Part shown: positions 29,601 through 60,865 of the stretch, piece after piece
How positions within the stretch are numbered: the first letter of the stretch is position 1
How the letters are laid out: each line of letters begins with the position of its first letter
Source: Dolichospermum sp. DET69
GTDB taxonomy: Bacteria > Cyanobacteriota > Cyanobacteriia > Cyanobacteriales > Nostocaceae
Length of the DNA stretch: 64,000 bases
NCBI GenBank assembly: GCA_017355425.1
Contig: CP070233.1
Location: 474,501-538,500 of the forward strand
Reading direction: 5' to 3'
Made by a program: the position numbers and the translations under genes
Notes under the pieces: model-generated
What the model was told of the DNA's origin: nothing
The model's database searches: none
What the model saw: the letters and a program-made list of their open reading frames with translations, nothing else

Positions 29601-30148
29601 GATTTACAGGATTTTAGGATTTACAGGATTGTTGTTTGTGGGTTGTTTGTGATAATTCAATGATTCAATTGTCTGAATCAGGATTTACAGGATTTTAGGA
29701 TTTACAGGATTGTTGTTTGTGGGTTGTTTATGATGATTCAATGATTCAATTGTCTGAATCAGGATTTACAGGATTTTAGGATTTACAGGATTGTTGTTTG
29801 TGGGTTGTTTGTGATGATTCAATGATTCAATTGTCTGAATCAGGATTTACAGGATTTTAGGATTTACAGGATTGTTGTTTGTGGGGTGTTTATGATGATT
29901 CAATGATTCAATTGTCTGAATCAGGATTTACAGGATTTTAGGATTTACAGGATTGTTGTTTGTGGGGTGTTTATGATGATTCAATGATTCAATTGTCTGA
30001 ATCAGGATTTACAGGATTTTAGGATTTACAGGATTGTTGTTTGTGGGTTGTTTATGATGATTCAATGATTCAATTGTCTGAATCAGGATTTACAGGATTT
30101 TAGGATTTACAGGATTGTTGTTTGTGGGTTGTTTATGATGGTTTAGAT
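26687..30148. repeat. 3.4-kb satellite of 81-bp tandem units (about 43 copies)
   Basis: The marker ATGATTCAATTGTCTGAATC recurs every 81 bp from 26761 to 30065. The spacing equals 41 periods once one 17-bp deletion (near 29550) is allowed for. A shorter leading unit at ~26700 lacks the same 17 bp. Each unit contains the inverted repeat TGATTCA-ATTGTC-TGAATCA and a 17-bp direct duplication (GGATTTACAGGATTTTA type). Units differ at only four or five positions. Variant order repeats in blocks of four units around 27247-27814, showing block-wise duplication. All frames hold stops. Both ends carry GATGGTTTAGAT. Confidence 0.98.
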
Positions 30149-36851: not shown

Positions 36852-36868
36852 CCGTCGCTGGATTTTAG
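35351..36868 (+). CDS. IS607-associated TnpB nuclease
   Basis: 505 residues, longer than typical TnpB (~400). RuvC-like motifs: IIGCDRGYTEVYATS (~225), KVAFEDLTEQIKGK (~330) and HSDTNAADNVL (~415). The zinc-ribbon cysteines are absent: the interval reads CAYTSQLDSRFSTLTGTRNG. A long C-terminal extension (~430-505) follows. The last five or so codons and the stop lie beyond the element boundary at 36851, in host DNA, so the exact C-terminus depends on the insertion site. Expected to be an RNA-guided nuclease that favours element retention. Confidence 0.92.
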   Translation: MKLKVKNQLTVTRIAILGTEKLNNWKSNELDLIALSLGKLRSDLWNEFGSLKAWGVSKFEIDKQLRTLKDKYQLPAKLWEATLYDVIDDIHLVQAACVEKVIKSLGQSFQSFQAKKGVLQLTLESREWLEHPKLCTLVRKFWYRGHTKVCNQIIVKAYDTKTDDKGVVWLRFGGLTPCKTLKLPTTLPTEIKCQIRLIKRNSRWEIHYTTDIQKAEKKTEGKIIGCDRGYTEVYATSSNDGARFLGNDFGKIQTQETDYRTAKQVKRNKIKSVFNKSTAKGNGAKADRIKRNNLGRIKWDNRETSFKGRIQTIVFTATHDLMTDAIKVAFEDLTEQIKGKKPMRKRMKRNVSSWCKGIVADALKQVSTRVGCTVVSVNCAYTSQLDSRFSTLTGTRNGDKFTGHDGVVMHSDTNAADNVLVRMGDVEITRYMKHSNVKVILLERTQKFRESLIVETEAKPGKDKPQTLEPKSKLANKVNQRANYKQLTLFDQGLTTLFVYPVAGF

Positions 36869-43020: not shown

Positions 43021-43112
43021 TAATCAATTTAGAATTCTCCTGTATGTACTTATGACAGATGAGAATTTAAACCATAAAAATTGTTTTGATTACGTGGTGT
43101 GAGATTAATAAA

Positions 43113-45509: not shown

Positions 45510-45618
45510 GTTTTATAGAACGGCTAACAAATCTTGGTTTCTGATTACGGAACTAGAATTGTAAATCTCAATTGTTACATAGTTGATAGATGCCAAGATA
45601 ATTAGGAAAAGTCAAGCT

Positions 45619-45960
45619 ATGAAGTATGAAAATGCCGTTTTAGATGATTTAGAACTTCAAGAGGCTTTAAAACAGATAAATCCGAAATTTGGTGATTTTG
45701 TTACGCGAGTAGCAGGTGAAGCTTGGGGACTGCCATTAATTGACCAAAAAACCAAAGCCTTGATTACCATTGCTGTTGATGTCGTCAACCAAGGACAAGC
45801 AGGACCTGGAAGCCCCTTTGGTGCTCATGTCGGTATGGCTCTCAAACAGGGAGCAACTCCTGAAGAAATCGAAGAACTGTTATTGTTTCTTTGCGCTTAT
45901 GCAGGATTTAATAAAGTTGCAGGCTGCTTTGGGGCTTTGAATGAAATTATGAGAAAATAA
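45619..45960 (+). CDS. Carboxymuconolactone decarboxylase family protein
   Basis: 113 residues from ATG 45619, preceded by AGGAAAAG; the longer TTG start at 45583 has no such site. FGAHVGMALKQGATPEEIEELL is the conserved helix region with the His, followed by FLCAYAGFNKVAGCF. The CxxC pair of AhpD-type peroxidase helpers is not present, so a decarboxylase-like or other role is more likely. In the Synechocystis icfG locus proteins of this family (slr1852/slr1853) occupy the same position. The N-terminal half of the 1052-residue protein at 47937 is a close paralogue. Confidence 0.88.
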   Translation: MKYENAVLDDLELQEALKQINPKFGDFVTRVAGEAWGLPLIDQKTKALITIAVDVVNQGQAGPGSPFGAHVGMALKQGATPEEIEELLLFLCAYAGFNKVAGCFGALNEIMRK

Positions 45961-46103
45961 TTTTCGGTGTAATTCTGGAATCGGCTAACCTTGATTTGTA
46001 GTTAAAGAAAGTGTAATTATTGAAGTGCAGAAACACGGATATTTGGGAAAAATAAAATCCTATTTTTTCACAAAGAAAAGTTCAGTTGTATGCCACTGTA
46101 AGA

Positions 46104-46130
46104 GTTAATATAGAAATGATAATTATTAAC
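46104..46130. promoter_or_regulatory. Possible operator upstream of the EthD gene
   Basis: GTTAATA and TATTAAC form perfect 7-bp arms around 13 bp (TAGAAATGATAAT). It lies in the 421-bp gap before the gene at 46382; the gap holds no ORF of its own. The sequence AATGATAATTATTA inside it is also loosely like a Fur box. No binding protein can be assigned. Confidence 0.3.
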
Positions 46131-46381
46131 CTTAAAAAAACAGACATAACAACTCACTTTTAGTTTGAGACAATTGCATTAAACGACTTCAACCTTGTCG
46201 CTGAATAAACTTTTTCAAATATTCTGCCTCTGTCTAGTGGTAGAAAATAAGTCCGAGTGTAAATATAGGCGATCGCTTGATTTGTAAAACTTAATTATTA
46301 TCAGCTTTTAGCCTTTATTTTCATCAAAGTAACATCAACAGTAATTGAAATTTAAGTATTGGTGGAAAAAGGACAGCAATA

Positions 46382-47935
46382 ATGCTTTCAGCAATTAATA
46401 ACGCAATCAAAACTGATTATTCAGCACGGGATCAAAAAGGAAAAGTAGCCTTTTATGTACTCCTGTGGAAAAGACAAGGAATCTCCCTAGAGCTTTTTGA
46501 TGACTATTGGAGAGACGTACACGGACCAGTTTGTGCGAGATTACCAGGACAGCATCAATACTGGCAATTTCATGTAGGACATAATCAAGGTGGTTTCTAT
46601 CCAGAAATTCCCAGACTAGACTATACAAATGACTCAGAAGATAATTTTGATGGGATTGCCGAGCTAACATTTGCTAGTGACGCAGATCGTCAGACATGGT
46701 TTACAGCCTCAGCCATCCTCATGGATGACGAACATAACCTATTTCGTAAAGCCATCGGTTACAACAGCAATCCTGGCAATTCTATTACATACATAGATAG
46801 AATACCTACAGGCGATCCCAACGGCGAAAGTGGCGCGATCAAATTTCACGTCATGGTGAAAAAAGCCAATGGTGCAAGTACGGAAGCTTTTCGGCGTTAT
46901 TTCACCGAAACTTTTGCCCCTAAAGTTAGCAGTAGTGATTCCATCCTCAAATTCCGACTACATTTATTTGAAGAAGTAGATAATTCTCGTCCAGATGCAG
47001 CAGGAGTTGGTCATTATGAACCAGCCGAAAAGCAATATCATGCAGCTTATGAAATTGCCTTTGCTAATCATCTAGAAAGAGAAAAGTTTTTCGCATCTTC
47101 TGAATATTTAGCAGCAGTAAAAGATGCCGCTAAATATATTAAACAAATCCAACCATTTCCTGAAAGATCAGCTTATACCTTTGTTTATGAAGGTGATATG
47201 ACTCTGGCTGGAAAACGCAGTTCCTCCGTAGCAGAACTGATCACAGAAATTGGTGCAGTTAATCAAATTCAAGAAGACATAGAATCTCTCATGCTAAATC
47301 AAACTCTTTACAGTCAACAAACCAACGGATCTTCTTCCCAAACCAGCCAAAACCAGCCAAAAGCAATGAAAAAAAGAACAAGTTATTATACTGGCTTATC
47401 AGCCGATTATTCTCGTCCCGGTTTAGTTACTCCTTACGTAGCCAAAAAACTGATCGAGGATGGAGAAAGAATTGTAGCGATGAAAGAACCAAAATTACCA
47501 GAAATTGGTCCGTATTACACCCTCGCACAAATAGAACAAGAAAACAGAGATTGGTGGCCTACCCATTGTGAAGCCTTAAGACAAGGAAGAGGCGATATCT
47601 TAACTGGAGAATATCGTGATGATCTAGTTTATTTTTGTCAGGATGGACCATACCAAGGTTTAGAACAACAAAAAGAAAGAGAAAAACATTGGTGGGCTTT
47701 AATTGCTCAACCAGGAGTGACAATGTGCTGGCCAATTGTCATGTTTTTTGGTGAACATACTTACTTTGAATGGAAGTGTGTGGATGATGAAACCAACGAA
47801 ACATTAGCTAAAGGTAATGTAACTTGGGTGCGTCGTGGACATCGTGGTGCTTGCTATTTGAAGACAGAGCAACTAACTTTCTATCGTGATGTTTTTGCTG
47901 CTAATGAATTATTGACTTTGATCACTACTGCTTAA
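46382..47935 (+). CDS. Tandem EthD-domain protein with NTF2/SnoaL-like C-terminus
   Basis: 517 residues. The first ferredoxin-like EthD domain (~20-135) shows FYVLLWKRQG and LFDDYWRDVHGPVCARLPGQ. A second, more distant one (~150-270) shows KFHVMVKKANGAS and YHAAYEIAFANHLEREKF. A Ser/Gln-rich linker (~300-325) leads to an NTF2/SnoaL-like domain (~345-510; WPTHCEALRQGRGDILTGEY, YFEWKCVDDETNETLAKGNV). EthD and SnoaL folds usually act on small aromatic or polyketide-like compounds. Residues 1-290 closely match the middle of the next protein. It stops 1 bp before the next ATG, so the two are co-translated. The substrate is unknown. Confidence 0.85.
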   Translation: MLSAINNAIKTDYSARDQKGKVAFYVLLWKRQGISLELFDDYWRDVHGPVCARLPGQHQYWQFHVGHNQGGFYPEIPRLDYTNDSEDNFDGIAELTFASDADRQTWFTASAILMDDEHNLFRKAIGYNSNPGNSITYIDRIPTGDPNGESGAIKFHVMVKKANGASTEAFRRYFTETFAPKVSSSDSILKFRLHLFEEVDNSRPDAAGVGHYEPAEKQYHAAYEIAFANHLEREKFFASSEYLAAVKDAAKYIKQIQPFPERSAYTFVYEGDMTLAGKRSSSVAELITEIGAVNQIQEDIESLMLNQTLYSQQTNGSSSQTSQNQPKAMKKRTSYYTGLSADYSRPGLVTPYVAKKLIEDGERIVAMKEPKLPEIGPYYTLAQIEQENRDWWPTHCEALRQGRGDILTGEYRDDLVYFCQDGPYQGLEQQKEREKHWWALIAQPGVTMCWPIVMFFGEHTYFEWKCVDDETNETLAKGNVTWVRRGHRGACYLKTEQLTFYRDVFAANELLTLITTA

Positions 47936-47936
47936 A

Positions 47937-50900
47937 ATGCAACAGGAGCGAGTGGACAAAAACGCGGTTTTGGATGACCTTGAACTTCAAAAAGGTCTAA
48001 AACAAATTAATCCCAAATTTGGTGATTTTGTCATTCGGGTCGCAGGTGAAGGTTGGGGTTTGCCATTAATTGACCAAAAAACTAAGGCTTTGATTACCAT
48101 CGCTATTGATGTTGTTAATCAGGATCATAGAGGTCCTGGCAACCCTTTCGCTGCTCATGTAAACATGGCTCTCCAGCAAGGTGCAACTCGCGCAGAAATT
48201 GAAGAACTGCTTTTGTTTCTTTGTCCTTATGCGGGATTCAATAAAGTTGCGGCTTGCTTTGCTAACCTGAATTTGATTTTTGATCATGCAAATAGCACAC
48301 CAAGGATAGCAGAAATGCTGACAATGAGTAGAAAGGCAATCACAGCAGATTATTCAGACCGGGATCAAGAAGGGAAAGTCGCCTTTTATGTACTCCTGTG
48401 GAAAAGACACGGCATCTCTCTAGAGCTTTTTGATAACTATTGGAAAGACGTACATGGGCCAGTTTGTGCCAGATTACCTGGACAACATCAATATTGGCAG
48501 TTTCATGTAGCTCATAACCAAGGTGGATTCTGTCCAGAGATTCCTGGTTTAGACGATACAACAGACTCAGAAGATAACTTTGATGGTATTGCCGAGTTAA
48601 CATTTGCCAGTGATGCAGACCGTCAAAAATGGTTTACAGCTTCTGCCATTCTGATGGATGATGAACACAACTTATTCCGCAAAGCCATCGGTTATAACAG
48701 CAGTCCTGGCAATTCTATTACATACATAGATAGGATTCCTAACGGCGATCCCAACGGCGAAGTTGGCGCAATCAAATTTCACGTCATGGTGAAAAAAGCT
48801 AATGGTGCAAGTACAGAAGCTTTTCGACGTTATCTCACCGAAACTTTTGCCCCCAAAGTTAGCAGTAGTGATTCCGTCCTCAAATTCCGACTACATTTAT
48901 TTGAAGAAGTAGATAATTCTCGTCCAGATGCAGCAGGAGTTGGTCATTATGAACCAGCCGAAAAGCAATATCATGCAGCTTATGAAATTGCCTTTGCTAA
49001 TCATCTAGAAAGAGAGAAATTTTTTGCCTCTTCCGAGTATTCAGCAGCCATAAAAGATGCCGCTAAATATATTCAACAAATTCAGCCATTTCCCGAAAGA
49101 ACAGCTTATACCTTTGTTTACGATGGTCAAATGACCCTGGCAGGTCAACGGAGTGCCAAAGTAGCAGAGTTAATTACTAAAATTGGAGCTGCTAATCAAA
49201 TCAAAAATGATATTGTTACCTTAATGGTTGGTGGTCAAACTAATGGCAAAGGTTTAATCAACAATGGTCAAACTGATTTAAAGCATACCCCCTTGACTAC
49301 TTCTGGTTTAGGTCATTTGTTGCAAGGCGTTCAACACGTCGGTGTCACAGTTGATGACATGAAACAATCCCTCGAATTTTACACAGAAATATTAGGAGGG
49401 AAATTAGTTGCTGGTGAAAATGAGTTAGTCGGTGATGTCATTCAAAATACTCTTTTTCAACAAGAAGAACTAGATGCGATCGCCAAAGGTATTGATCCAA
49501 AAAACCTAACTATTCCCCATCTCAGAAGCACCAAAGAAGACGCATTAGATGTCAAGTTTATTTCTTTTGGTAACACCGCTGTAGAACTAATCTACTTCCG
49601 AGAAGCGGGTAAACCTCATGCCTCTCATGCTTCAGTTCCTACCATTCCTTCCCACATTGGTAATGTCAATGCCATGCACATTTCTTTCAACGTCAAAGAA
49701 GGCGTTGATTTGAATGTTTTTGCCAATATGTTAGAAGCAGAATGTCATAAAAGAGGGATGACAAACGTCGTTTGTAACCGAGTTGTCCACGTCAAATCTG
49801 AAGCCGAAAGAAGAGCCGTTGCCCTCAGATATAATTCTTTTAAATTTTGGAACGAACCAGAGTCTTTAGCAGCAGGAGAACCAGAAATAGATTGGAGTCA
49901 TGACCCAATGGAAGGTTGGTCTTTGTTCTACTGCAAAGGACCAAATGGGGAACAATTGGAATTTAACCAAGTTACCCGTAAAGTTAAAACCAGCTTCCAA
50001 AAAGGAATGGCAGAATATAACCAAGCCAACGGCACTACATTCACCTTTCCAGAAGCAATAGTTACCAACTTCAATCACACAGGAAACGGCCAACATCCTC
50101 AAATTGACCAGATGCAAAATCACAACTCTGGCAATTTAACAGCAACCAATAATGGAACTATCTCCATGTCCAAACAATTTCCCGGAACAAATACAGACTT
50201 AGTAAAGCGATTATTCTCCAGAGGGGAAGCCTTTGATGCCGAAGGTTTCATTGCTTTTTTTACAGATACACCAGTTTATCAATTTGGTAACTTTGATGTC
50301 TGTTTGAATAAAGAAGCCATCAAAAAATCAGCCGATGCTTTCTTTAGTCAAATTGATGCGGTTTACCACGAAATCAAAATGATCTGGGAAGTCGGCAACG
50401 TCGTCTTCGTAGAAATGGATGTTCTCTATTGGCGTAAAGATGGCTCAGTTATCTCACTTCCTTGTAGTGACATCTTCCGAGTTGAAGGAGATAAATTCAG
50501 CGAACTGCGGATTTTTATGGATGTAAATCCCGTATTTAACCCTACAATTCCTGTGCCTAAATCTGCTTCTGTGTTAACAGTTAGCAAAGGACAAAAAATG
50601 GTTCCTCCCGACACCATGAGGAGACATTTTGCCGAACATCCTGAAGGTAAACAAAGAGTAGCCCAAGGATTTATTCCTAAATGGTCAATTGCCGGGCCAA
50701 AATGGCCTATAGATGGTGTTCAACCGCCATCACCACAATTACAAGTAGTTGGGGAACTATCAGCCGCAATCATGGCTGAAGATTGGGAAAAAGTCAAAAC
50801 TTACCTGACAGATGACCTGTTTTATAAGGTTGGTTCAGGTGAGCCAATGTATGGACCCAATGCAGTTGTAGATTTCTTTAAACACACCTTTAAAACTACT

Positions 50901-51095
50901 GCTAAGTTTTATGGTCATGATGCTCGAAAAATTTGGATAGAACCAGACATCATCACCATTGAAATGGACGCTAAATATGAAATGGTGGGCAGTAAGAAAC
51001 ACGTGGTAGTTGCCTGTTGTGATATCTATCGGATGCGGGGAAATAAGGTCAGTGAATGGCGAGTTTATGCTGATATGACCCCGTGGCAAAACTGA
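47937..51095 (+). CDS. 1052-aa fusion: CMD - EthD - EthD - VOC - NTF2 - NTF2
   Basis: Six domains in one frame. Carboxymuconolactone decarboxylase-like at ~10-118 (FAAHVNMALQQGATRAEIEE); EthD at ~145-265 (LFDNYWKDVHGPVCARLPGQ); second EthD-like at ~285-400; vicinal-oxygen-chelate (glyoxalase-type) at ~460-680, with the metal ligands His (QHVGVTV), Glu (AVELIYF), His (AMHISFN) and Glu (QLEFNQV) all present; two NTF2/SnoaL domains at ~749-890 and ~930-1052. This fuses in one chain what the two preceding genes encode apart, and adds the VOC domain. A cytosolic multi-step enzyme acting on a small organic compound is inferred. No known protein of this architecture comes to mind. Confidence 0.88.
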   Translation: MQQERVDKNAVLDDLELQKGLKQINPKFGDFVIRVAGEGWGLPLIDQKTKALITIAIDVVNQDHRGPGNPFAAHVNMALQQGATRAEIEELLLFLCPYAGFNKVAACFANLNLIFDHANSTPRIAEMLTMSRKAITADYSDRDQEGKVAFYVLLWKRHGISLELFDNYWKDVHGPVCARLPGQHQYWQFHVAHNQGGFCPEIPGLDDTTDSEDNFDGIAELTFASDADRQKWFTASAILMDDEHNLFRKAIGYNSSPGNSITYIDRIPNGDPNGEVGAIKFHVMVKKANGASTEAFRRYLTETFAPKVSSSDSVLKFRLHLFEEVDNSRPDAAGVGHYEPAEKQYHAAYEIAFANHLEREKFFASSEYSAAIKDAAKYIQQIQPFPERTAYTFVYDGQMTLAGQRSAKVAELITKIGAANQIKNDIVTLMVGGQTNGKGLINNGQTDLKHTPLTTSGLGHLLQGVQHVGVTVDDMKQSLEFYTEILGGKLVAGENELVGDVIQNTLFQQEELDAIAKGIDPKNLTIPHLRSTKEDALDVKFISFGNTAVELIYFREAGKPHASHASVPTIPSHIGNVNAMHISFNVKEGVDLNVFANMLEAECHKRGMTNVVCNRVVHVKSEAERRAVALRYNSFKFWNEPESLAAGEPEIDWSHDPMEGWSLFYCKGPNGEQLEFNQVTRKVKTSFQKGMAEYNQANGTTFTFPEAIVTNFNHTGNGQHPQIDQMQNHNSGNLTATNNGTISMSKQFPGTNTDLVKRLFSRGEAFDAEGFIAFFTDTPVYQFGNFDVCLNKEAIKKSADAFFSQIDAVYHEIKMIWEVGNVVFVEMDVLYWRKDGSVISLPCSDIFRVEGDKFSELRIFMDVNPVFNPTIPVPKSASVLTVSKGQKMVPPDTMRRHFAEHPEGKQRVAQGFIPKWSIAGPKWPIDGVQPPSPQLQVVGELSAAIMAEDWEKVKTYLTDDLFYKVGSGEPMYGPNAVVDFFKHTFKTTAKFYGHDARKIWIEPDIITIEMDAKYEMVGSKKHVVVACCDIYRMRGNKVSEWRVYADMTPWQN

Positions 51096-51120
51096 ACTGA
51101 AATCATTTAGGAGAATAGTT

Positions 51121-52629
51121 ATGTCACATAAAGTAATAGACCTATTACAAGCAGCTTTTGATCAACCCAATCTACAACAGCAACTGCATTCTGCTAATAC
51201 GGCTGAACAGTTTGTCAAGATTGCTAGAGAAAACGGCTATGAATTAAGTCAGCAAGAATTGGCAGCAGCACTTGGCAAAGTTCATATGGTTTTTGGCCAA
51301 GTTGTGGAGTCAATGATGGGTGATTTGATGGCACAAGGCGCAACTGATAATGCCGAAACTGCCAGCATAGAGAGTATTTCTGGAACTAATACAGACTTAG
51401 TAAAACGCTTGTTTTCCAGAGGTGAAGCTTTTGATGCTGAAGGTTTCATTACTTTCTTTACCGACACACCAGTTTATCAATTTGGTAATTTTGATGTCTG
51501 TTTAAATAAAGCAGATATTAAAAAATCAGCCGATGCTTTCTTTAGTCAAATTGATGCCGTATACCACGAGATCAAAATGATCTGGGAAGAAGGAGATGCG
51601 GTATTCGTAGAAATGGACGTGACATACTGGCGCAAAGATGGCTCAGTTGTTTCACTGCCTTGTTTTGATATCTTCCGAGTTGAGGAAGATAAATTCAGTG
51701 AATTGCGGATTTTTATGGATGTAAATCCTGTATTTAATCCCTCAATTCCCGTTCCTGAATCTGCTTCTGTATTAACAGTTAGCAAAGGACAGCAAATGCT
51801 TCCTCCCGGCACAATGAGAAGACATTTTGCCGAACATCCTGAAGGTAAACAAAGAGTATCTCAAGGATTTATTCCTAAATGGTCAATTGCCGGACCAAAG
51901 TGGTCAGTAGATGGGAATATGGAAATGCCGTCAGAACAGTTACAAGTAGTTGGGGAACTATCAGCCGCAATCATGGCGGAAGATTGGGAAAAAGTCAAAA
52001 CTTACCTGACAGATGATCTATTTTATAAAGTTGGTTCAGGTGAGCCAATGTATGGACCAAATGCAGTTGTAGACTTCTTTAAACACACCTTTAAAACTAC
52101 TGCTAAGTTTTATGGTCATGAGGCTCGAAAAATTTGGATAGAGCCAGACATCATCACCATTGAAATGGACGCTGAATATGAAATGGTGGGCAGTAAGAAA
52201 CACGTGACAGTAGCTTGCTGTGATATCTATCGAATGCGGGGCAACAAGGTCAGCGAATGGCGCGTTTATGCTGATATGTCTCCTTGGGGTGAAGCTGCTG
52301 GTAAATCCGTTGCGCTGGATAAAGAAAAGGCTTCCCAAGTGTTTCCAGTAATTGTGGTATTTGAAGTCGAAACATGGAAACAACAAGAGATTTTAAAGAG
52401 CATTGTTGATTACATGGAAAACCACGTTAAATACCAACCAGGCTTTATTTCCTCCACTTTGCACAGAAGTTTAGATGGTACTAGAGTGATCAACTATTCC
52501 CAGTGGGAAAGCCCAGAATTCTTTAAGAAATCCATTGATGGTAAAATGCGATCGCTCGAACCAAAAATATTCCAAGAAATCTCTCCAGACGGACATCTAT
52601 ACGAGATTTATCACCAAGCCACAGCTTAA
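51121..52629 (+). CDS. Nif11-like - NTF2 - NTF2 - antibiotic monooxygenase fusion
   Basis: 502 residues. Residues ~1-60 (NLQQQLHSANTAEQFVKIAR, ENGYELSQQELAAALG) fit the Nif11 domain, best known as a leader of ribosomal peptide precursors. Two NTF2/SnoaL domains (~87-230 and ~270-392) are nearly identical to those ending the 1052-residue protein. The last ~100 residues form an antibiotic biosynthesis monooxygenase (ABM) domain (QPGFISSTLHRSLDGTRVIN, YSQWESPEFFKK). Here the Nif11 segment precedes enzymes, not a core peptide, so it may be a docking domain. Ribosome binding site TAGGAGAA; 25 bp after the previous gene. Confidence 0.87.
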   Translation: MSHKVIDLLQAAFDQPNLQQQLHSANTAEQFVKIARENGYELSQQELAAALGKVHMVFGQVVESMMGDLMAQGATDNAETASIESISGTNTDLVKRLFSRGEAFDAEGFITFFTDTPVYQFGNFDVCLNKADIKKSADAFFSQIDAVYHEIKMIWEEGDAVFVEMDVTYWRKDGSVVSLPCFDIFRVEEDKFSELRIFMDVNPVFNPSIPVPESASVLTVSKGQQMLPPGTMRRHFAEHPEGKQRVSQGFIPKWSIAGPKWSVDGNMEMPSEQLQVVGELSAAIMAEDWEKVKTYLTDDLFYKVGSGEPMYGPNAVVDFFKHTFKTTAKFYGHEARKIWIEPDIITIEMDAEYEMVGSKKHVTVACCDIYRMRGNKVSEWRVYADMSPWGEAAGKSVALDKEKASQVFPVIVVFEVETWKQQEILKSIVDYMENHVKYQPGFISSTLHRSLDGTRVINYSQWESPEFFKKSIDGKMRSLEPKIFQEISPDGHLYEIYHQATA

Positions 52630-52692
52630 AGTTACCCCAAATCAAGAAATTTATTGATCTGCAATATTCTTGATTTAAGCAGCATTAACTAG

Positions 52693-52712
52693 GGGTAAAC
52701 GGTTGTTTACCC
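52693..52712 (+). terminator. Hairpin between the NTF2/ABM and DJ-1 genes
   Basis: GGGTAAAC-GGTT-GTTTACCC is a perfect 8-bp stem with a 4-base loop, 64 bp after the stop. It is followed by TTACCTCTAAAC and not a run of T, so it may be partial or a processing site; the gap to the next start is 171 bp and could hold a new promoter. Confidence 0.55.
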
Positions 52713-52800
52713 TTACCTCTAAACTATTGTATTTTTTCACTCTGTCATACAGTTTTTACAATTCTCTTAATTTTCCAAATCACCAAGGATTAAAATTTAG

Positions 52801-53403
52801 ATGACAGCTACTAGTAAAGGTAAAATCGGTGTACTCGTTGAAGAACATTTTGACGGCACAGAGTTCCGCCGTTTTAATGAATATTTTCCTGAACAGGGTT
52901 ATGAAGTAGAGTATATTTCCCATCTTTGGGGCAACAAAGAACTACACTTTGGTTCCAACCCCGAAAATGATCAAGTAGAATATCATGTCACTGTCAGCAC
53001 AGAAGTTAAAGACGTAAAACCCAGCGACTATAAAGGCATTATTTGTATCGGAGCCTATGCAATGGATAGACTCCGATATGAAGTCAATGTCAAAAAAGGG
53101 CAAAAAAATCAAGCTCCAGCCGTGGTTTTTCTGCGTGATGCCGTCGCTGAAGATAAAGTTAAATTAGGGACAATTTGCCATAGCTTATGGCTATTTTGTG
53201 CAGATCCAGACCTAATTAAAGGTAAAAAAGTCACCTGCGCTCATAACATCATCTGTGATGTAGAAAATGCTGGAGCAGATGTTATTTATGAAGGTGATGT
53301 TACTACAGATTTAGTCATTGATGGTAATCTGATTACAGGCAAACATCCCGGCATGGTTGACCAATTTATGGAAATTTTTGTCCAAGAAATTGAAAAAAAT
53401 TAG
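52801..53403 (+). CDS. DJ-1/PfpI family protein
   Basis: 200 residues of the class I glutamine amidotransferase-like DJ-1/PfpI fold. The nucleophile elbow GTICHSLWLF (Cys near 124) and the N-terminal IGVLVEEHFDGTEFRRF (the Glu near 14) supply the usual pair. DJ-1/PfpI proteins act as glyoxalases, chaperones or deglycases; which applies here is not visible. Synechocystis slr1854 in the icfG cluster is the positional counterpart. The AGE-fold gene follows after 54 bp. Confidence 0.88.
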   Translation: MTATSKGKIGVLVEEHFDGTEFRRFNEYFPEQGYEVEYISHLWGNKELHFGSNPENDQVEYHVTVSTEVKDVKPSDYKGIICIGAYAMDRLRYEVNVKKGQKNQAPAVVFLRDAVAEDKVKLGTICHSLWLFCADPDLIKGKKVTCAHNIICDVENAGADVIYEGDVTTDLVIDGNLITGKHPGMVDQFMEIFVQEIEKN

Positions 53404-53457
53404 TCCTGTACGTACGTAATTTAACCCAATCAATTCTTAACAAAACGAGGATATCTT

Positions 53458-55278
53458 ATGACTACCAAGGTAGATTTTACCTTTTCTGACCTCATCGCTG
53501 GCTACGTTACCGAATATGACGGTAATAGCGATACCTTTGGACTAAAAACTTCTGATGGCAGAGAATTTGAAGTTAAAATCAGTCCCATGGCCTATGCGAA
53601 GTTAATTCAAAACTTTGATGAAGGCTATCCTGATGCAACTGCCAGCATGAGAGCTATGCTATTACCAGGAAGGTATTTGTTTACATACGGGGTATTTTAT
53701 CCAGATAAAGATATCTTTGATGCTAAACAGATAGTTTTTGCTGGTCGTCAGAAAACAGATTACGTTTTCGAGAAACAAGATTGGTGGATAAAACAGGTGA
53801 ATGCTTTAGGTAAATTTTACCTCAAAGCTCAATTTGGCGATGGTGACTACGACTACCGCAGGTATCGCACTACTTTAAATCTCAGTGGTGTACAATCAAC
53901 CACCAATTTCCGCCAAGAAACCGATACTATTTCTCGTCTAGTCTATGGTTTTGCGACTGCTTTCTTGATGACAGGGAATGATAGCTTCCTCAAAGCTGCT
54001 GAAAATGGGACTGAGTACCTGCGGGAACACATGAGGTTTGTAGACTTAGACGAAGGGATTGTCTACTGGTATCACGGTATTGATGTCAAGGGAGAAAAAG
54101 AAGATAAAATCTTTGCTTCTGAATTTGGGGATGATTACTATGCTATCCCTGCTTATGAACAAATTTACGCCCTAGCGGGTCCGATTCAAACCTATCGGTG
54201 TACTGGTGATCCCCGCATTATGGATGACACGGAGAAAACCATTAAGCTATTTAACGAGTTTCTACTCGATAAAAGTGAACAGGGCGGATATTTCTCTCAC
54301 CTCGATCCATTGACATTAGATCCTCTCAGCGACTCATTAGGACAGAACAAGGGAACAAAAAACTGGAACTCCGTCGGTGATCATGCTCCAGCTTACCTAA
54401 TTAACCTGTGGTTAGCGACAGGTAAACAAGAATATGCTGATATGTTGGAGTCTACTTTTGACACTATCGAAAAGCATTTCCCTGACGACGAAAATAGTCC
54501 ATTTGTCCAAGAACGTTTCTTCCAAGACTGGTCTAAAGACACATCTTGGGGTTGGCAACAAAACCGCGCTGTCGTCGGTCACAACCTGAAAATTGCCTGG
54601 AATTTGATGCGGATGCAAAGCCTCAAAGCTAAGGATAGCTATGTCAATCTCGCTCAAAAAATTGCTGATGTCATGCCAGCAGTGGGTAGTGATCAGCAAC
54701 GTGGTGGCTGGTACGACGTTGTAGAACGCACCCTAGCAGAAGGTGAAGAGCATTATCGCTTTGTTTGGCATGATCGCAAAGCTTGGTGGCAACAGGAACA
54801 AGCTATCTTAGCCTATCAAATTCTCGCAGGTATTCTGGATAACAAAGAATATCACCGCTTGGCTCGTGAATCCGCAGCATTTTATAACGCTTGGTTCTTA
54901 GATTTAGAAGAGGGTGGGGTTTATTTCAACGTTTTAGCTAACGGTATTCCCTATCTAGCTGGGGGTAACGAACGGGGTAAAGGTTCTCACTCCATGAGTG
55001 GTTATCACTCCTTTGAATTATGTTATTTAGCAGCAGTTTATACAAACCTGCTAATTACTAAGCAGCCTATGGACTTCTACTTTAAGCCTATTCCCGGTGG
55101 ATTCCCTGACGATATTCTGCGAGTATCACCTGATATTTTACCACCCGGTAGCGTAAAAATTGGTAAGTGCGAAATTGACGGCGAACCTTATAGCAATTTC
55201 GATGCAGAAGCTTTAACTGTCACATTACCCAAAACCAGCGAACGGGTTAAAGTTAAGGTACAGATTGTGCCTGTATAA
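53458..55278 (+). CDS. N-acylglucosamine 2-epimerase (AGE)-fold protein
   Basis: 606 residues. An N-terminal beta-rich domain (~1-95) precedes an (alpha/alpha)6 barrel (~110-540) of the AGE/cellobiose epimerase superfamily. Likely pocket segments include FRQETDTISRLVYGFATAFL, FSHLDPLTLDPL, WGWQQNRAVVGHNLKIAW and FVWHDRKAWWQQEQAILAYQ. The superfamily isomerises sugars at C2. The N-terminal extra domain and the place beside GlgX suggest a role in carbon reserves. Counterpart of slr1855 in the icfG cluster. Ribosome binding site CGAGGA. Confidence 0.85.
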   Translation: MTTKVDFTFSDLIAGYVTEYDGNSDTFGLKTSDGREFEVKISPMAYAKLIQNFDEGYPDATASMRAMLLPGRYLFTYGVFYPDKDIFDAKQIVFAGRQKTDYVFEKQDWWIKQVNALGKFYLKAQFGDGDYDYRRYRTTLNLSGVQSTTNFRQETDTISRLVYGFATAFLMTGNDSFLKAAENGTEYLREHMRFVDLDEGIVYWYHGIDVKGEKEDKIFASEFGDDYYAIPAYEQIYALAGPIQTYRCTGDPRIMDDTEKTIKLFNEFLLDKSEQGGYFSHLDPLTLDPLSDSLGQNKGTKNWNSVGDHAPAYLINLWLATGKQEYADMLESTFDTIEKHFPDDENSPFVQERFFQDWSKDTSWGWQQNRAVVGHNLKIAWNLMRMQSLKAKDSYVNLAQKIADVMPAVGSDQQRGGWYDVVERTLAEGEEHYRFVWHDRKAWWQQEQAILAYQILAGILDNKEYHRLARESAAFYNAWFLDLEEGGVYFNVLANGIPYLAGGNERGKGSHSMSGYHSFELCYLAAVYTNLLITKQPMDFYFKPIPGGFPDDILRVSPDILPPGSVKIGKCEIDGEPYSNFDAEALTVTLPKTSERVKVKVQIVPV

Positions 55279-55355
55279 CTAGAGAGAGAAAAAAGGGAGG
55301 AGTGTTTCTCACCTCTTCCCCATATCTAAGTATAAATCTACCGGAAGTTGGCAAG

Positions 55356-55703
55356 ATGGAAGAAACTAAAATTGAGATTAATATCACAACGATTGAAGAC
55401 ATAAACATAGTTGTGGTGAAGGGTGATATAGATGCCAGTACAGCACAATCGGTGACAAAAAAAGTTTTACCACTAGTAGAACCAGGAAGTAAAATTCTGC
55501 TCGATATGACTGCTGTACCTTATATGTCCAGTGCGGGTTTGCGAACTTTGTTAAGTGTACATCGGCAAGCAGCATCCAAAGAAGGAAAACTGGTGCTTGT
55601 GGGTTTGGTACAAGATGTTAAAGATACAATGGATGTAACTGGATTCCTAGAACATTTTGTCACTACTGAAAACCTGGAAGCAGGATTAGCAGCCCTCAAA
55701 TAA
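55356..55703 (+). CDS. STAS-domain anti-sigma factor antagonist (first)
   Basis: 115 residues from ATG 55356, chosen because CCGGAAG precedes it and the longer start adds 18 residues with no family character. VKGDIDASTAQSVTKKVLP and DMTAVPYMSSAGLRTLL are the STAS hallmarks; the Ser in MSSAGLR is the residue phosphorylated by the partner kinase. Partner-switching: unphosphorylated STAS protein binds the RsbW-type kinase and frees its target. Counterpart of slr1856. It sits 11 bp before glgX. Confidence 0.93.
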   Translation: MEETKIEINITTIEDINIVVVKGDIDASTAQSVTKKVLPLVEPGSKILLDMTAVPYMSSAGLRTLLSVHRQAASKEGKLVLVGLVQDVKDTMDVTGFLEHFVTTENLEAGLAALK

Positions 55704-55714
55704 GGAAAAGTTTA

Positions 55715-57835
55715 ATGGAAAGAATTGATGTTCATCCAACGCATACTTATGAAGGGTTTAAATTACGCAACGGAAAACCATTTCCGTTTGGTGCAACCCT
55801 AGTTCCAGGAGGGGTTAACTTCTCGATCTTTTCGAGTTATGCCAAATCCTGTACTCTAGTTCTATTTGAAAGACACGCCAAGAAACCATTAGCAGAAATT
55901 CCTTTTCCTGAAGAATTTCGGATTGGTAATGTTTATTGCATGACTGTCTTTGACCTGGATTATGAAAATCTGGAATATGGCTATCGGATGGATGGTCCGA
56001 ATAGTTTCCAGGAAGGTCATTGGTTTGATACTAGCAAAGTCTTGATGGACCCCTACGCCAAGATTATTGGTGGTCGGGATGTTTGGGGTGTAACTCCAGA
56101 CTGGAATGATATTTATCACCATCGGGCGAGAATTGCTTTTGATGATTTTGACTGGGAAAATGATCGTCCGTTGGAAATTCCCCCAGAGGATCAAGTCATC
56201 TATGAAATGCACGTTCGCAGTTTTACCCGTCATCCTTCATCTGGTGTGAAAGACAAGCATCAGGGAACATTTGCGGGTATCAGGGACAAAATTTCTTATC
56301 TCAAAGAGTTGGGTGTCAACGCTGTGGAGTTGATGCCTATTTATGAGTTTGATGAGTTTGAAAACAGTCGTCCTAATCCCCAAACTGGCGAAACTCTATA
56401 TAATTACTGGGGTTACAGTACCGTTGGTTTTTTTGCCCCCAAGGCTGGTTATGCGGCTACGGGCAAATTTGGGATGCAGGTGGATGAGTTAAAAACACTG
56501 GTTAAAGAATTACATAAAAACGGGATTGAGGTAATTCTTGATGTAGTTTTCAACCACACGGCTGAAGGTAATGAGCATGGTCCGACAATTTCTTTTCGAG
56601 GGATTGATAATAAGATCTACTATATGCTGACCCCAGAAGGGTATTATTACAACTTTAGCGGGACTGGTAATACTCTCAACTGTAATAACCCCATTGTTCG
56701 CGGTATAGTTTTAGATTGTCTGCGTTACTGGGCTTCAGAATATCATATTGATGGCTTCCGATTTGACTTGGCGGCTATTTTAGGTCGTGACCCTTGGGGC
56801 GCACCTTTAGCAAATCCACCTCTGCTTGAATCTTTGGCCTTTGACCCGATTTTGGCTAAGTGTAAACTGATTGCTGAAGCTTGGGATGCTGGCGGTTTAT
56901 ACCAAGTAGGTTCTTTCCCAGCTTACGGACGTTGGGCAGAATGGAATGGTAAATACCGTGATGGTATTCGTAAGTTTTTGAAGGGTGATGGTACGGTTGG
57001 GGATGCTGCTCAACGTTTGCAAGGCTCTCCTGATTTGTATGCTTGGTCTGGCCGCGCTCCGGCAACATCAATTAATTTCATTACGGCACACGATGGTTTC
57101 ACCATGATGGATCTGTTTTCCTACGATGGGAAACATAATGAGGCTAATGGTGAAAATAATAACGATGGCACTAATGATAATGATAGCTGGAACTGTGGTT
57201 GGGAAGGTCAAACAGATGATCCAGGTATCAATGCTTTACGCCGTCGGCAAATTAAAAATGCCCTGGCTATGCTGATGGTAAGTCAAGGTGTACCCATGAT
57301 TCTCATGGGTGATGAAGTGGGACGCACTCAGTATGGTAATAATAATACTTATTGCCACGATAATGACTTAAACTGGTTAGACTGGAAACTATTAGAAACT
57401 AATGCAGATTTGTTTAAGTTTTTTAAACACTGTATTGCTTTCCGTAATCTCCACCCAGTGTTAAGAAGTCCCTGGCATTTCCAGAACCGCGATTATGTGG
57501 GCAGTGGTTATGCAGATATCACTTGGCATGGCACACAGGCATGGAATGCAGATTGGTCTGATTCTAACCGCAGTCTGGCTTTTATGCTTTGTGGAAAACA
57601 CGCCAAGCAAGGCACAGTGGAAGATAATTATATCTACGTGGCTATGAATATGCACTGGGAATCTATGTGGTTTGAACTTCCTGGCTTGCCTTTAGGCATG
57701 AATTGGCATATTTTTGCGAATACTGGGGCTACAACACCGCATGATAGTTGGCAACCTGGGACTGAACCAATGTTAGAAAATCAATCGGGGTTGCTTTTGG
57801 GCGATCGCTCTATGGCAATTTTGGTAGGTAAGTAA
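55715..57835 (+). CDS. glgX: Glycogen debranching enzyme GlgX
   Basis: 706 residues, full length. N-terminal CBM48-type domain (~1-150), then a GH13 barrel. Catalytic residues: DGFRFDLAAIL (nucleophile Asp, ~350), LIAEAWDAGG (acid Glu, ~387) and ITAHDGFTMMDL (Asp, ~455); DVVFNHTAEGNEHGP is conserved region I. It removes alpha-1,6 branches of glycogen. It lies between two STAS genes, as slr1857 does in Synechocystis, tying glycogen breakdown to the partner-switching system. Confidence 0.96.
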   Translation: MERIDVHPTHTYEGFKLRNGKPFPFGATLVPGGVNFSIFSSYAKSCTLVLFERHAKKPLAEIPFPEEFRIGNVYCMTVFDLDYENLEYGYRMDGPNSFQEGHWFDTSKVLMDPYAKIIGGRDVWGVTPDWNDIYHHRARIAFDDFDWENDRPLEIPPEDQVIYEMHVRSFTRHPSSGVKDKHQGTFAGIRDKISYLKELGVNAVELMPIYEFDEFENSRPNPQTGETLYNYWGYSTVGFFAPKAGYAATGKFGMQVDELKTLVKELHKNGIEVILDVVFNHTAEGNEHGPTISFRGIDNKIYYMLTPEGYYYNFSGTGNTLNCNNPIVRGIVLDCLRYWASEYHIDGFRFDLAAILGRDPWGAPLANPPLLESLAFDPILAKCKLIAEAWDAGGLYQVGSFPAYGRWAEWNGKYRDGIRKFLKGDGTVGDAAQRLQGSPDLYAWSGRAPATSINFITAHDGFTMMDLFSYDGKHNEANGENNNDGTNDNDSWNCGWEGQTDDPGINALRRRQIKNALAMLMVSQGVPMILMGDEVGRTQYGNNNTYCHDNDLNWLDWKLLETNADLFKFFKHCIAFRNLHPVLRSPWHFQNRDYVGSGYADITWHGTQAWNADWSDSNRSLAFMLCGKHAKQGTVEDNYIYVAMNMHWESMWFELPGLPLGMNWHIFANTGATTPHDSWQPGTEPMLENQSGLLLGDRSMAILVGK

Positions 57836-57840
57836 ATTCA

Positions 57841-57868
57841 AGTTTGGCAAAGTTAAATTTGCCAACTT
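57841..57868 (+). terminator. Hairpin after glgX
   Basis: AGTTTGGCAAA-GTTAAA-TTTGCCAACTT, an 11-base stem with one mismatch, 5 bp after the stop and followed by TCAACTTTCAACTACTTTTTTG. It may separate glgX from the second STAS gene. Confidence 0.65.
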
Positions 57869-57914
57869 TCAACTTTCAACTACTTTTTTGTAATTCAAAT
57901 ACTAACAGGAAATT

Positions 57915-58235
57915 ATGGCTTTAGAAGTAACGCTACAAACAAGTGAAGATATCGCTCAAATTACCTTAGTTGGAGAACTGGATGCTAGTACAGCAACAGT
58001 TTTTAAAGACAAGGTAGAAGAGGCTGCTAAACTTAATCCTCAACGTTTAGTGCTGATGATGCAAGGACTAGAGTACATGGCCAGTGCCGGACTCCGGGTG
58101 CTAATCTTCGCTAAACAAAAGATGGGAACAGATGTAAAAATCTATATGGTTGGCACTCAAGAGACTGTATTAGATACTATTACGAAGACTGGCTTTGACC
58201 AAAGTGTTTATTTGGTAGATGAGTACGACGCTTAA
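57915..58235 (+). CDS. STAS-domain anti-sigma factor antagonist (second)
   Basis: 106 residues. VGELDASTATVFKDKVEEAA and GLEYMASAGLRVLIFAKQKM are STAS hallmarks, with the phosphorylatable Ser in ASAGLR. In Synechocystis two such proteins (Slr1856 and Slr1859) are substrates of the locus kinase and of IcfG. This one is the Slr1859 counterpart. Two STAS proteins allow two inputs or two targets for one kinase. Ribosome binding site CAGGAAA. Confidence 0.93.
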   Translation: MALEVTLQTSEDIAQITLVGELDASTATVFKDKVEEAAKLNPQRLVLMMQGLEYMASAGLRVLIFAKQKMGTDVKIYMVGTQETVLDTITKTGFDQSVYLVDEYDA

Positions 58236-58290
58236 TAAATAAGCAGATTGTAGCAATTTGACATTGCACCAAACACAATCTGAATTTAAT

Positions 58291-58320
58291 TGTAGAGACG
58301 TTCCATGGAACGTCTCTACA
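58291..58320. repeat. Perfect 30-bp palindrome
   Basis: TGTAGAGACGTTCC-AT-GGAACGTCTCTACA reads the same on both strands (28 paired bases around AT). It is a known type of dispersed cyanobacterial repeat. It lies between the second STAS gene and the kinase gene and could act as a terminator or be neutral. Confidence 0.85.
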
Positions 58321-58451
58321 GGGGTTAGGAAATCACAAAAAATCATTTTCATAGATAAAATTAGCAACACTAGAAATTTGAAAAGATATCAATCTTCGTT
58401 TCTGGGAAAGTTGCAAATATTCAACTGAATTATCGATCAATATCAAAACCA

Positions 58452-58877
58452 GTGTTTATGGAAAGTTTAACCGTATCGGGAACATTAGACTCTTTAGGAG
58501 CGATCGCTAAATATGTGATCAAAGCGGCTGAATTAGCGGGCTTGGATAAAAAAGCCACCTATAAGCTGCGTCTAGCAGTTGACGAAATTGCCACTAACAT
58601 AATTATTCATGGCTATGAAGAAGCTGGTTTACAAGGACAATTAGATATATCTGGGACTTTTCAGGAATCAACTTTAACAATTTGTATTGAAGATACAGGA
58701 GCCAAATATGATCCTCACGAAAAGGTGACTGTCGCAGTTGAAGAATTAAATAAGCCATTGGCAGAGCGTCCCATAGGTGGACTGGGAGTATATTTAGCCA
58801 TTCAAGGTGTTGATGAATATTTCTATGAACGTGAAGGAAATAAAAATCGCAACATTTTTATTGTCAATTGCAAATAG
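58452..58877 (+). CDS. RsbW-type anti-sigma factor / serine kinase
   Basis: 141 residues with the GHKL ATPase fold. N box: LAVDEIATNIIIHGYEE (~55); G1: IEDTGAKYDP (~90); G2: IGGLGVYLAIQ (~112). These proteins phosphorylate STAS partners with ATP, and some also hold a sigma factor. Counterpart of Slr1861 of the icfG cluster. Together with the two STAS proteins and the PP2C phosphatase it completes a partner-switching circuit. No sigma factor gene lies in the window. Confidence 0.92.
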   Translation: MFMESLTVSGTLDSLGAIAKYVIKAAELAGLDKKATYKLRLAVDEIATNIIIHGYEEAGLQGQLDISGTFQESTLTICIEDTGAKYDPHEKVTVAVEELNKPLAERPIGGLGVYLAIQGVDEYFYEREGNKNRNIFIVNCK

Positions 58878-59395
58878 ACGAGTTTATAGATGTTTGTTTA
58901 GGGTATATTGAGTTAATTCAGCCCCGATTAATCTAAGTTAGTAGGTTAAGCATTTGCACAATAGAAAACATACAGGTATTAAGCATCTAATTTTTGAGAC
59001 AACTCAGTTTACAAGTTCATGGTGGGAATCATTTGCTTAGGGGGAATGTCACTGACTCAACCCTAAAGGGATTGAGCTTGTAAAGAACAAACTTTACAAC
59101 ACAAGCAGCGACTAGCCCATTGAGACTAATCCTGATACGCACTTCCGAATACTTCCCCAGTATGGCTTACGCCACGCTACGCTATCGGATTATCTGCAAG
59201 ACTGTTTGTTAAGTCGTTGGTTAAAGACAAGACATTTTGGATTAGTTGGGCGAGGGGACTTGAACGGGTTTGCTGGTTCCCGGGATTATATCCATTCAAA
59301 AATCAGCATTTAAATACCACAGTGAATAAATTCACTCGTGTCGCTTCCCTCTCACCGGCTAAAGCCACTGAGTTTCCCGCATACCGCGAGGTTTT
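58878..59395. other. Gap before the phosphatase gene, made of repeats
   Basis: 518 bp with no convincing gene; a 60-residue ORF at 59217 lacks any family feature. The content is a CTCAACCC-TAAA-GGGATTGAG hairpin (~59053), a copy of the 24-bp dispersed repeat (59160-59188), and structured repeat copy A next to the phosphatase start. The first hairpin and following GCTTGTAAAG resemble right ends of IS200/IS605-type elements, so part may be a decayed element. Confidence 0.5.
59322..59389 (+). repeat. Structured dispersed repeat, copy A, in the phosphatase leader
   Basis: GTGAATAAATTCAC (hairpin), CGTGTCGCTT, CCGGCTAAAGCC (second hairpin), ACTGAGTTT, then TACCGCGAGG. It matches copy B (813-880, minus strand) along ~66 bp. 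The stem keeps pairing while its bases differ (GTG/CAC here, GCG/CGC in copy B). Its 3' end supplies GCGAGG, the likely ribosome binding site 6 bp before ATG 59396. Confidence 0.75.
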
Positions 59396-60865
59396 ATGAA
59401 TTTTAACAATCAAACTCAAACAGTAGATTACAAAGAACTAGAATCACTCCGCTGCGAAGTAGCAAAACTCAGAAATGAAAAAGCTGTTTTCAAGGCTCAA
59501 AGTCATTTGCTAGAAAAATTAGTATCAATGGCCCGCTCTTCAACGGAAGGGGAGGTACTAAAATCAGCATTACAGAATACATTAGATGTGGCCACGGATC
59601 AAACTAACTCGGAAAAAGGTAGTTTGTTCTTGCTTGAACCTTCTGGAAAGGTAGCAGACGCAATTTTGTCACGCACAGAAGTAACGTCAGAACAACGCAA
59701 GAATCTGATTGGTAATGTATTAGATAAGGGTTTAGCTGGTTGGGTAATCCGTCACCGTGAACTAGGATTAATTACGGATACTGAAAATGATGATCGCTGG
59801 CTTACCTTGCCTAATCAGCCTTACATTGTCCGTTCGGCTTTGGCTGTTCCCATTATCAGGGGTGAAGAATTACTCGGTATTATTACTTTATTGCATTCTC
59901 AACCGGGGCATTTTAGTCAAGAAACAGCTAATCTGATGCTGCTAACGGCCGACCAGATGGCTTTAGTCTTGGAAAATGCTCGTCTGTACTCCAAACTTGA
60001 TAAATATTCCAAAGCTCTTGATGCTGAACTAGAAAAGGGACGACAAATACAGATTGATTTTCTCCCCTACGAATTGGTTAAATTGCCTAATTGGGAAATT
60101 GCTGCTTGTTTTTATCCAGCCCGTCAAGTAGCTGGAGACTTCTACGATACTTTTGAACTTCCTAATAATCAGGTAGGACTCGTAATTGCGGATGTATGTG
60201 ATAAAGGGGTAGGAGCAGCATTATTCATGGCTTTAATGCGGAGTTTAATCCGTGTTTTTTCTTCAGAAACGCAATTGCGTGGACTGGCTTATCAAATTCT
60301 TGAGGACAATCAGCCCATTGGTGGTTGGATTGGTGAGTCTGACTTCAAAAATTTAGATCACCTAAATGCGCTGCAAGCAGTTTCCAGAACAAATGAATAT
60401 GTTGCCCAAAATCACTGGCAAATGAGTATGTTTGCCACCATGTTTTTTGGTGTTCTAGAACCGGAAACGGGAATACTTACTTATATTAATGGTGGACATG
60501 AACCACTGTTTATTGTTAACCAATCTGGTGTGAAGAATATTCTTAAATCCACTGGGCCAGCGGTAGGGATGATGACTGGGAGTAAATTTAAAATCCAGCA
60601 AGTTCAGCTTGAACCCGGTGATATATTGATTGGTTATACTGACGGTGTGACTGAAGGCAAAAACCCTGAAGGTAAGTTATTTACAGACAAGCGACTGCGA
60701 GATATTCTGGAGCAGCCATCCAGTTCGGCTAAGGATTTGCTCAATTCTATTAGAACTAATTTATTTGCTTTTGTTGCTGATGCTCCACAGTTTGATGATA
60801 TTACAATGCTTTGTGTAGGCAGACTTGCGGAAGATGAAGAAGGAGTCACCGAGTCACCGAGTTAG
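59396..60865 (+). CDS. icfG: GAF-PP2C protein serine phosphatase, IcfG/RsbU-type
   Basis: 489 residues. A short N-terminal coiled coil (~8-35), a GAF domain (~45-195; SEKGSLFLLEPSGKVADAIL, GLAGWVIRH), a linking helix (~200-225) and a SpoIIE/PP2C domain (~235-480). Metal-binding Asp motifs: YPARQVAGDFYDTF, VIADVCDKGVGAALFMALMR, GYTDGVTEGKN and FDDITMLCVG. It removes phosphate from the STAS proteins, with the GAF domain as sensor of an unknown ligand. Synechocystis IcfG (Slr1860) does this and is needed to coordinate inorganic carbon and glucose use. Orthology rests on gene context and domain order. Confidence 0.88.
   Translation: MNFNNQTQTVDYKELESLRCEVAKLRNEKAVFKAQSHLLEKLVSMARSSTEGEVLKSALQNTLDVATDQTNSEKGSLFLLEPSGKVADAILSRTEVTSEQRKNLIGNVLDKGLAGWVIRHRELGLITDTENDDRWLTLPNQPYIVRSALAVPIIRGEELLGIITLLHSQPGHFSQETANLMLLTADQMALVLENARLYSKLDKYSKALDAELEKGRQIQIDFLPYELVKLPNWEIAACFYPARQVAGDFYDTFELPNNQVGLVIADVCDKGVGAALFMALMRSLIRVFSSETQLRGLAYQILEDNQPIGGWIGESDFKNLDHLNALQAVSRTNEYVAQNHWQMSMFATMFFGVLEPETGILTYINGGHEPLFIVNQSGVKNILKSTGPAVGMMTGSKFKIQQVQLEPGDILIGYTDGVTEGKNPEGKLFTDKRLRDILEQPSSSAKDLLNSIRTNLFAFVADAPQFDDITMLCVGRLAEDEEGVTESPS

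Follow-up and report, generated by a model that had tools for sequence, protein, structure and literature searches.

An icfG-type partner-switching cluster in a conserved enzyme neighbourhood of Dolichospermum sp. DET69, and a possible action of STAS2 on the AGE protein

Gene content of the cluster and its enzyme belt

The DNA studied here is a stretch of 64,000 nucleotides from Dolichospermum sp. DET69 (contig CP070233.1, positions 474,501 to 538,500), which in its full length is called the window; the genome comprises 6.04 Mb in two contigs. Judged by gene content and motifs, the window carries an icfG-type partner-switching cluster, preceded by a belt of multidomain enzymes. A preliminary description had read both parts from the letters, and both were borne out. 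From 45583 to 60865 every gene is an intact frame on the + strand with its family assigned by Pfam, including the cluster content of DJ-1, AGE, STAS, GlgX, STAS, RsbW kinase and GAF-PP2C. The CMD, EthD, VOC, NTF2, ABM and Nif11 domains of the three large belt proteins were also confirmed by Pfam, except for the NTF2-fold part of the 46382 protein. The block contains the following features.

45583..45960, + strand: CMD (carboxymuconolactone decarboxylase family) protein, by Pfam
46382..47311, + strand: EthD double domain, by Pfam and predicted structure
47357..47932, + strand: NTF2-fold domain without a Pfam match, by predicted fold and conserved family
47937..51095, + strand: CMD-EthD-EthD-VOC-SnoaL-SnoaL protein, by Pfam
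51121..52629, + strand: Nif11-SnoaL-SnoaL-ABM protein, by Pfam
52801..53403, + strand: DJ-1/PfpI protein, by Pfam
53458..55278, + strand: AGE-type (N-acylglucosamine 2-epimerase family) protein, by Pfam
55302..55703, + strand: STAS1, in the position of Slr1856, with an SSAG phosphosite, by Pfam, tree and phosphosite alignment
55715..57835, + strand: GlgX-type debranching enzyme, by Pfam
57915..58235, + strand: STAS2, in the position of Slr1859, with an ASAG phosphosite, by Pfam, tree and phosphosite alignment
58452..58877, + strand: RsbW/SpoIIAB-like kinase, in the position of Slr1861, by Pfam, PDB sequence matches and ATP-site motifs
59396..60865, + strand: GAF-SpoIIE PP2C phosphatase of the IcfG type, by Pfam

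The NTF2-fold part (here fused to EthD), CMD, DJ-1 and AGE all lie ahead of STAS1, and GlgX stands between the two STAS genes, both of which encode the phosphosite serine. RsbW-like kinases are marked by an N-box and a G-box. Both ATP-site motifs were present in the kinase 58452..58877, which in sequence matched anti-sigma F and RsbW proteins of known structure. The arrangement is like that of SpoIIAA-SpoIIAB and RsbV-RsbW in that such a kinase is accompanied by STAS proteins with a phosphosite serine, and from what is known of Synechocystis the kinase and the phosphatase are predicted to act on the STAS proteins here. Unlike in these systems, the switch sits among metabolic enzymes, and some lineages fuse a STAS2-type domain to an enzyme.

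The kinase, the GAF-PP2C phosphatase, the two STAS proteins, GlgX, AGE, DJ-1 and CMD are also found in near-identical order in the icfG cluster of Synechocystis sp. PCC 6803 (slr1852-slr1862); for this comparison we used Synechocystis salina L154 and the literature on PCC 6803, not the PCC 6803 sequence. In the part of PMC12329169 that treats the switch, Slr1861 is described as the anti-SigC factor and as the kinase of Ssr1600, Slr1856 and Slr1859, IcfG dephosphorylates Slr1856 and not Slr1859, and a figure legend gives the target sigma factors of Slr1856 and Slr1859 as unknown. Passages of two other papers state that the kinase activity of Slr1861 was verified (PMC11863333) and that slr1852-1862 is one salt-repressed operon in Synechocystis (PMC8670252). 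Unlike the Synechocystis cluster, the window has the EthD/VOC/SnoaL/Nif11/ABM multidomain proteins, the EthD-NTF2 fusion and, further upstream, a multicopper oxidase and a porin, and the kinase precedes the phosphatase. The preliminary description had placed only CMD genes at the site of the belt in Synechocystis. This did not hold, since Synechocystis salina L154 and L069, of the same genus group, have an NTF2-fold protein and CMD; in L063, the third genome of this group, EthD is present.

Within the CMD family, a CxxC motif is the active site of the AhpD peroxidase. This function was rejected for the CMD protein 45583..45960, the translation of which has no CxxC; its nearest solved sequences are carboxymuconolactone decarboxylases. 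The protein at 46382-47935 matched the EthD family PF07110 twice (64.7 and 61.2 bits, cut-off 22). The model of this part is a double alpha-beta barrel with an anthrone oxidase-like protein as its top structural match, and compared with the anthrone oxidase-like proteins (5f9p; PenE, 9kdp) and ActVA-Orf6 the EthD part has only 5% identity. The C-terminal 192 residues of the same protein (326-517) matched no Pfam family at E<=1, the SnoaL/NTF2 models included. They belong to a conserved family, predicted to adopt an NTF2 fold, which is encoded by a separate gene in many genomes and by the first gene of the icfG operon in Synechocystis salina. When the EthD part and the NTF2-fold part were compared with the PDB by sequence, no match was obtained. 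The ABM domain of the 51121 protein scored 23.1 bits, exactly its Pfam cut-off, and among PDB sequences it matched ActVA-Orf6 and anthrone monooxygenase. The His/His/Glu pattern of the VOC domain was kept in 38 of 39 rows. Fusions of belt domains recur, EthD-NTF2 in 32 frames and CMD-EthD-VOC-SnoaL in 22. An aromatic polyketide cluster was considered and dropped: unlike in the setting of the anthrone oxidases and ActVA-Orf6, no polyketide synthase was recognised on reading the listed open reading frames, for which no profile search was made.

Linkage across genomes and the STAS domain fused to AGE

The linkage of these genes was surveyed in 386 sampled cyanobacterial genomes (G-numbers) and, around the NTF2-fold gene, in the best 80 of 141 named relatives; single loci bear L-numbers. 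EthD was found in 13 of the 386 genomes with 19 copies. In 12 of the 13 genomes, and for 15 of the copies, it lay at most 10 kb from AGE, where a rough estimate for 5-Mb genomes gives a chance expectation of 0.06 of 13 genomes. Synteny had been set beforehand as a check on the preliminary description, and the linkage of the EthD and NTF2 genes to the icfG-type cluster proved to be conserved. The NTF2-fold gene occurred in 24 genomes, all of which have AGE, and the two genes were at most 10 kb apart in 19. Weak matches were dropped from these counts (EthD on C169 of G121, with 59 aa; AGE in G261 and on C68 of G005), which leaves AGE in 35 genomes, compared with 36 before.

The gene counts in the 80 loci are lower bounds, since the loci are cut, each being followed for about 10 kb or as far as its contig reaches. 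They were at least 69 for DJ-1, 65 for CMD, 64 for AGE, 51 for GlgX, 44 each for EthD and STAS1, 38 for STAS2, 33 for VOC, 32 for SnoaL, 31 for PP2C and 23 for the kinase. Nine of the loci lie outside the cyanobacteria, in records named Acidobacteria, Bryobacteraceae, Bryobacterales, Magnetomicrobium, Methylococcaceae, Methylobacter, Accumulibacter, Competibacteraceae and Terrimicrobiaceae. Parts of the core block are present in them, and four of these nine genomes gave a match to EthD. For six of the nine loci the GC content of 54-63%, higher than in most of the cyanobacterial loci, speaks against contamination. In 247 Acidobacteriota genomes the NTF2-fold gene was found once, in the genome already known, and is therefore sporadic in this phylum. 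The occurrence of core-block parts across phyla fits horizontal spread. A third type of locus was seen in L163, L166 and L168, with a distant AGE (35-36%), a distant DJ-1, EthD, CMD, the NTF2-fold gene, DJ-1 and, at 27%, a gene resembling GlgX; neither STAS nor kinase nor phosphatase was found in range.

The AGE frames numbered 91 (87 distinct; four genomes seem to occur twice among the loci), and 14 of them carry a C-terminal STAS-like domain, nine detected by BLAST and five read from the C-terminal extension. In L131, DJ-1 and AGE form a single frame (11391-13691). Kinase, PP2C and separate STAS were found at none of the 14 fused loci, ten of which extend at least 6 kb downstream. Among the 47 unfused loci of this extent, a kinase or PP2C was present in 37 and a separate STAS in 41; the six without a separate STAS are distant AGE paralogues (32-41% identical).

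The STAS tree has few columns, many unresolved forks and some long branches. STAS1 forms one group (100/99), and the fused domains nest inside the STAS2 clade (99/90; 100/96), of which STAS2 57915..58235 is a member. They stand in one set of 15 rows (87/97), together with L114, a row with the STAS2 label that comes after a truncated AGE at the edge of a contig. The STAS2-labelled proteins of family f25 (L084, L085, L086, L087) group away from the other STAS2 proteins. One STAS frame (L141, <60 bits, with the Ser motif present) was left out of the locus, tree and phosphosite counts. The phosphosite serine was present in 66/66 STAS1 and 55/55 STAS2 rows, a stand-alone count of 121/121 that may be biased because BLAST could miss divergent stand-alone STAS proteins. 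Only four of the 14 fused rows have the serine, and the others have two Thr, two Ala, one Asn, four Asp and one Glu.

When whole genomes were searched at E<=0.001, the kinase was not found in nine of the ten fused genomes. The tenth, G121, has the kinase and also an unfused locus, and the kinase was found in all seven other genomes searched. With STAS2 as the query, all eight genomes that have an unfused locus gave a stand-alone copy at the icfG locus, and six of the nine fused-only genomes gave the fused copy.

EthD was present at seven of the 14 fused loci (L075, L089, L091, L111, L116, L139 and L173), a biased share since four of the seven had been fetched via the NTF2-fold gene; among the ten fused loci fetched via AGE, EthD was present at three. 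This persistence indicates that EthD goes with the AGE/GlgX/NTF2 core and not with the phosphorylation circuit as such. The preliminary description had joined the belt to the partner switch, which stands for the core and falls for the phosphorylation circuit. Its further proposal, that the circuit might control, or be fed by, a metabolite of the belt enzymes, stays conditional, and as a whole the earlier interpretation is partly supported.

The left border and the position of the block

Two large genes lie directly upstream of the block.

38705..42991, + strand: large multicopper oxidase with a laccase-type cupredoxin part, FG-GAP repeats and DUF4114, by Pfam and motifs
43086..44918, + strand: SLH-OprB type porin of the iron-uptake porin family NF033921, by Pfam/family match

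The copper-ligand motifs of laccase-type multicopper oxidases are HxH, HxH, HxxHxH and HCHxxxH, and all four were present in the oxidase. When its cupredoxin part was used as the query, seven of the 386 genomes matched at E<=1e-60. In six of them (G000, G072, G318, G255, G322 and G203) the oxidase lay at most 10 kb from EthD, and in the seventh, G286 (41% identity), EthD was not found. The oxidase matched in 13 of the 80 loci, three of them weakly at 25-26%, and the porin in 12, five of these only 28-34% identical. Judged by this linkage, the oxidase belongs to the block, and the porin is perhaps also part of it.

None of eight same-genus genomes gave a match to AGE, EthD or the large oxidase. 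The hisIE neighbourhoods were compared in eight relatives, seven of the same genus and G072. A porin corresponding to 24724-26532 adjoins hisIE in three of the eight (G125, G070 and G072), and in G151 the genes preceding that porin do so. In the window 34 kb separate the porin from hisIE (26532-60946), and in G072 the icfG block is sited elsewhere (C2). From the adjacency in the relatives, the other site in G072 and the absence from the same-genus genomes, the block is judged either to have reached this site by acquisition or relocation, or to have disappeared from the relatives.

Some other features of the window were noted. Downstream of the cluster follow hisIE (complement) and then a hemL-like gene. 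A TnpA/TnpB-like pair lies at 34715-36868, inside the stretch absent from the close relatives, and a further TnpB-like frame at 1098-2435; the names of the first two genes and of the pair are readings of the sequence. At 26717-30140 an 81-bp tandem repeat (42.5 copies, 97% matches) adjoins the porin at the left edge of this stretch. No tRNA was found in the window and no Rfam match in 36000-64000. Between 44900 and 61000 there were 30 promoter-like sites, compared with a shuffle mean of 39.7, and 18 terminator-like sites, compared with 12.2, neither count being informative.

Possible outputs of the switch

The gene content, the conserved linkage, the fusions, the decay of the phosphosite and the kinase that was not found are best explained, in our view, by an icfG-type metabolic block in which STAS2 would bind AGE and set its activity. 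We regard this explanation as evenly poised between right and wrong. Where they are separate AGE and STAS2 are neighbours, and their fusion suggests a direct partnership and hence an action of STAS2 on AGE itself. On the simplest reading STAS2 is a regulatory partner of AGE, and a fused pair can do without this kinase and phosphatase.

From these observations we infer the following course. A horizontally spread metabolic block with a core of NTF2-fold protein, CMD, DJ-1, AGE and GlgX would be joined by the STAS/kinase/phosphatase switch and by a variable belt of EthD/VOC/NTF2/ABM enzymes, here with the multicopper oxidase in addition. The kinase would phosphorylate the STAS proteins, and the GAF-PP2C phosphatase, answering a signal, would reverse the phosphorylation of at least STAS1. 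By binding AGE directly, STAS2 would set its activity, and the AGE/GlgX-linked carbon flow would be switched jointly with the sigma-factor branch described for Synechocystis. The belt enzymes would act in the same programme on a small, probably cyclic or phenolic/quinone-like substrate. In lineages with the STAS2-AGE fusion the switch would be hard-wired, and this kinase and phosphatase would have been lost from the locus. The fuller proposal, in which STAS2 is a phospho-switchable regulatory subunit of AGE, so that one arm of the icfG circuit has a metabolic enzyme, and not a sigma factor, as its end point, and in which the fusion hard-wired it, the phosphoserine decayed (Asp or Glu in 5/14) and the kinase and phosphatase were lost, is plausible, although we put it slightly short of an even call.

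Several points weigh against a control of AGE by STAS2. Four of the fused loci extend less than 6 kb downstream, and the Fisher p of 4e-6 for the phosphosite difference ignores the relatedness of the rows. As the fused rows form one set, fusion, decay and kinase loss may represent one or a few events. The kinase may have been missed, because four of the nine genomes belong to f25, where the kinases are 24-36% like the query, and other kinases may be present, as PmgA binds Slr1856 and Slr1859 in a two-hybrid test cited in PMC12329169. In the frames examined no fusion joins the EthD set to the AGE set, four of the 19 EthD copies have no AGE within 10 kb, and five of the nine non-cyanobacterial genomes searched gave no match to EthD. 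In addition, the kinase output described in published work is SigC, with no need of AGE.

This output leads to the reading that the switch ends on sigma factors only. STAS1 and STAS2 would then be rivals of SigC for the kinase, and the other genes, AGE, GlgX and EthD among them, would be no more than co-transcribed targets or neighbours. The anti-SigC role of Slr1861 (PMC12329169) and the common repression of the operon by salt (PMC8670252) speak for it, but a pure anti-anti-sigma role leaves a STAS2-type domain that is fused to AGE, without a kinase and with a decayed phosphosite, unexplained, and we consider this reading doubtful, if a serious competitor. The locus may also be read as a phenolic/quinone island, in which external phenolics are oxidised by the oxidase, which is perhaps secreted, the products enter through the porin, the EthD/VOC/NTF2/ABM/CMD enzymes modify them and the icfG genes only report the carbon status. 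The copper motifs, the presence of the large oxidase at the locus in 6/7 genomes, the conserved VOC pattern (38/39 rows) and the similarity, in structure or weakly in sequence, to anthrone oxidase, ketosteroid isomerase/SnoaL and limonene epoxide hydrolase are consistent with this. However, at E<=1e-60 such an oxidase is missing from seven of the 13 genomes with EthD. A core that includes GlgX and AGE speaks for sugars, a fold does not reveal a substrate, and the secretion of the oxidase is putative. As a full account we hold it to be unlikely, and it may be compatible with the action of STAS2 on AGE. That the block was built by a recent insertion and its adjacency has no function is highly improbable: the 34 kb between porin and hisIE, adjacent in three of eight relatives, and the lack of AGE, EthD and the large oxidase in the same-genus genomes would agree with it, but these gene neighbours are shared by 12 of the 13 genomes with EthD and by records of other phyla.

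In the open-licence literature we found no joint account of EthD, carboxymuconolactone decarboxylase and cyanobacteria, of a 2-epimerase with a STAS domain and anti-sigma factors, or of multicopper oxidase/laccase with FG-GAP in cyanobacteria. The question of what STAS2 acts on matters for cyanobacterial carbon regulation, where the part of PMC12329169 on these proteins leaves the targets of Slr1856 and Slr1859 unsettled. For an action of STAS2 on AGE, the fusion and the phosphosite pattern name the AGE protein as a concrete, testable target, and the lineages where the kinase was not found offer a natural comparison. Taken together, our results define a conserved enzyme neighbourhood around the icfG-type switch and, at the head of the operon, an NTF2-fold family that Pfam does not match.

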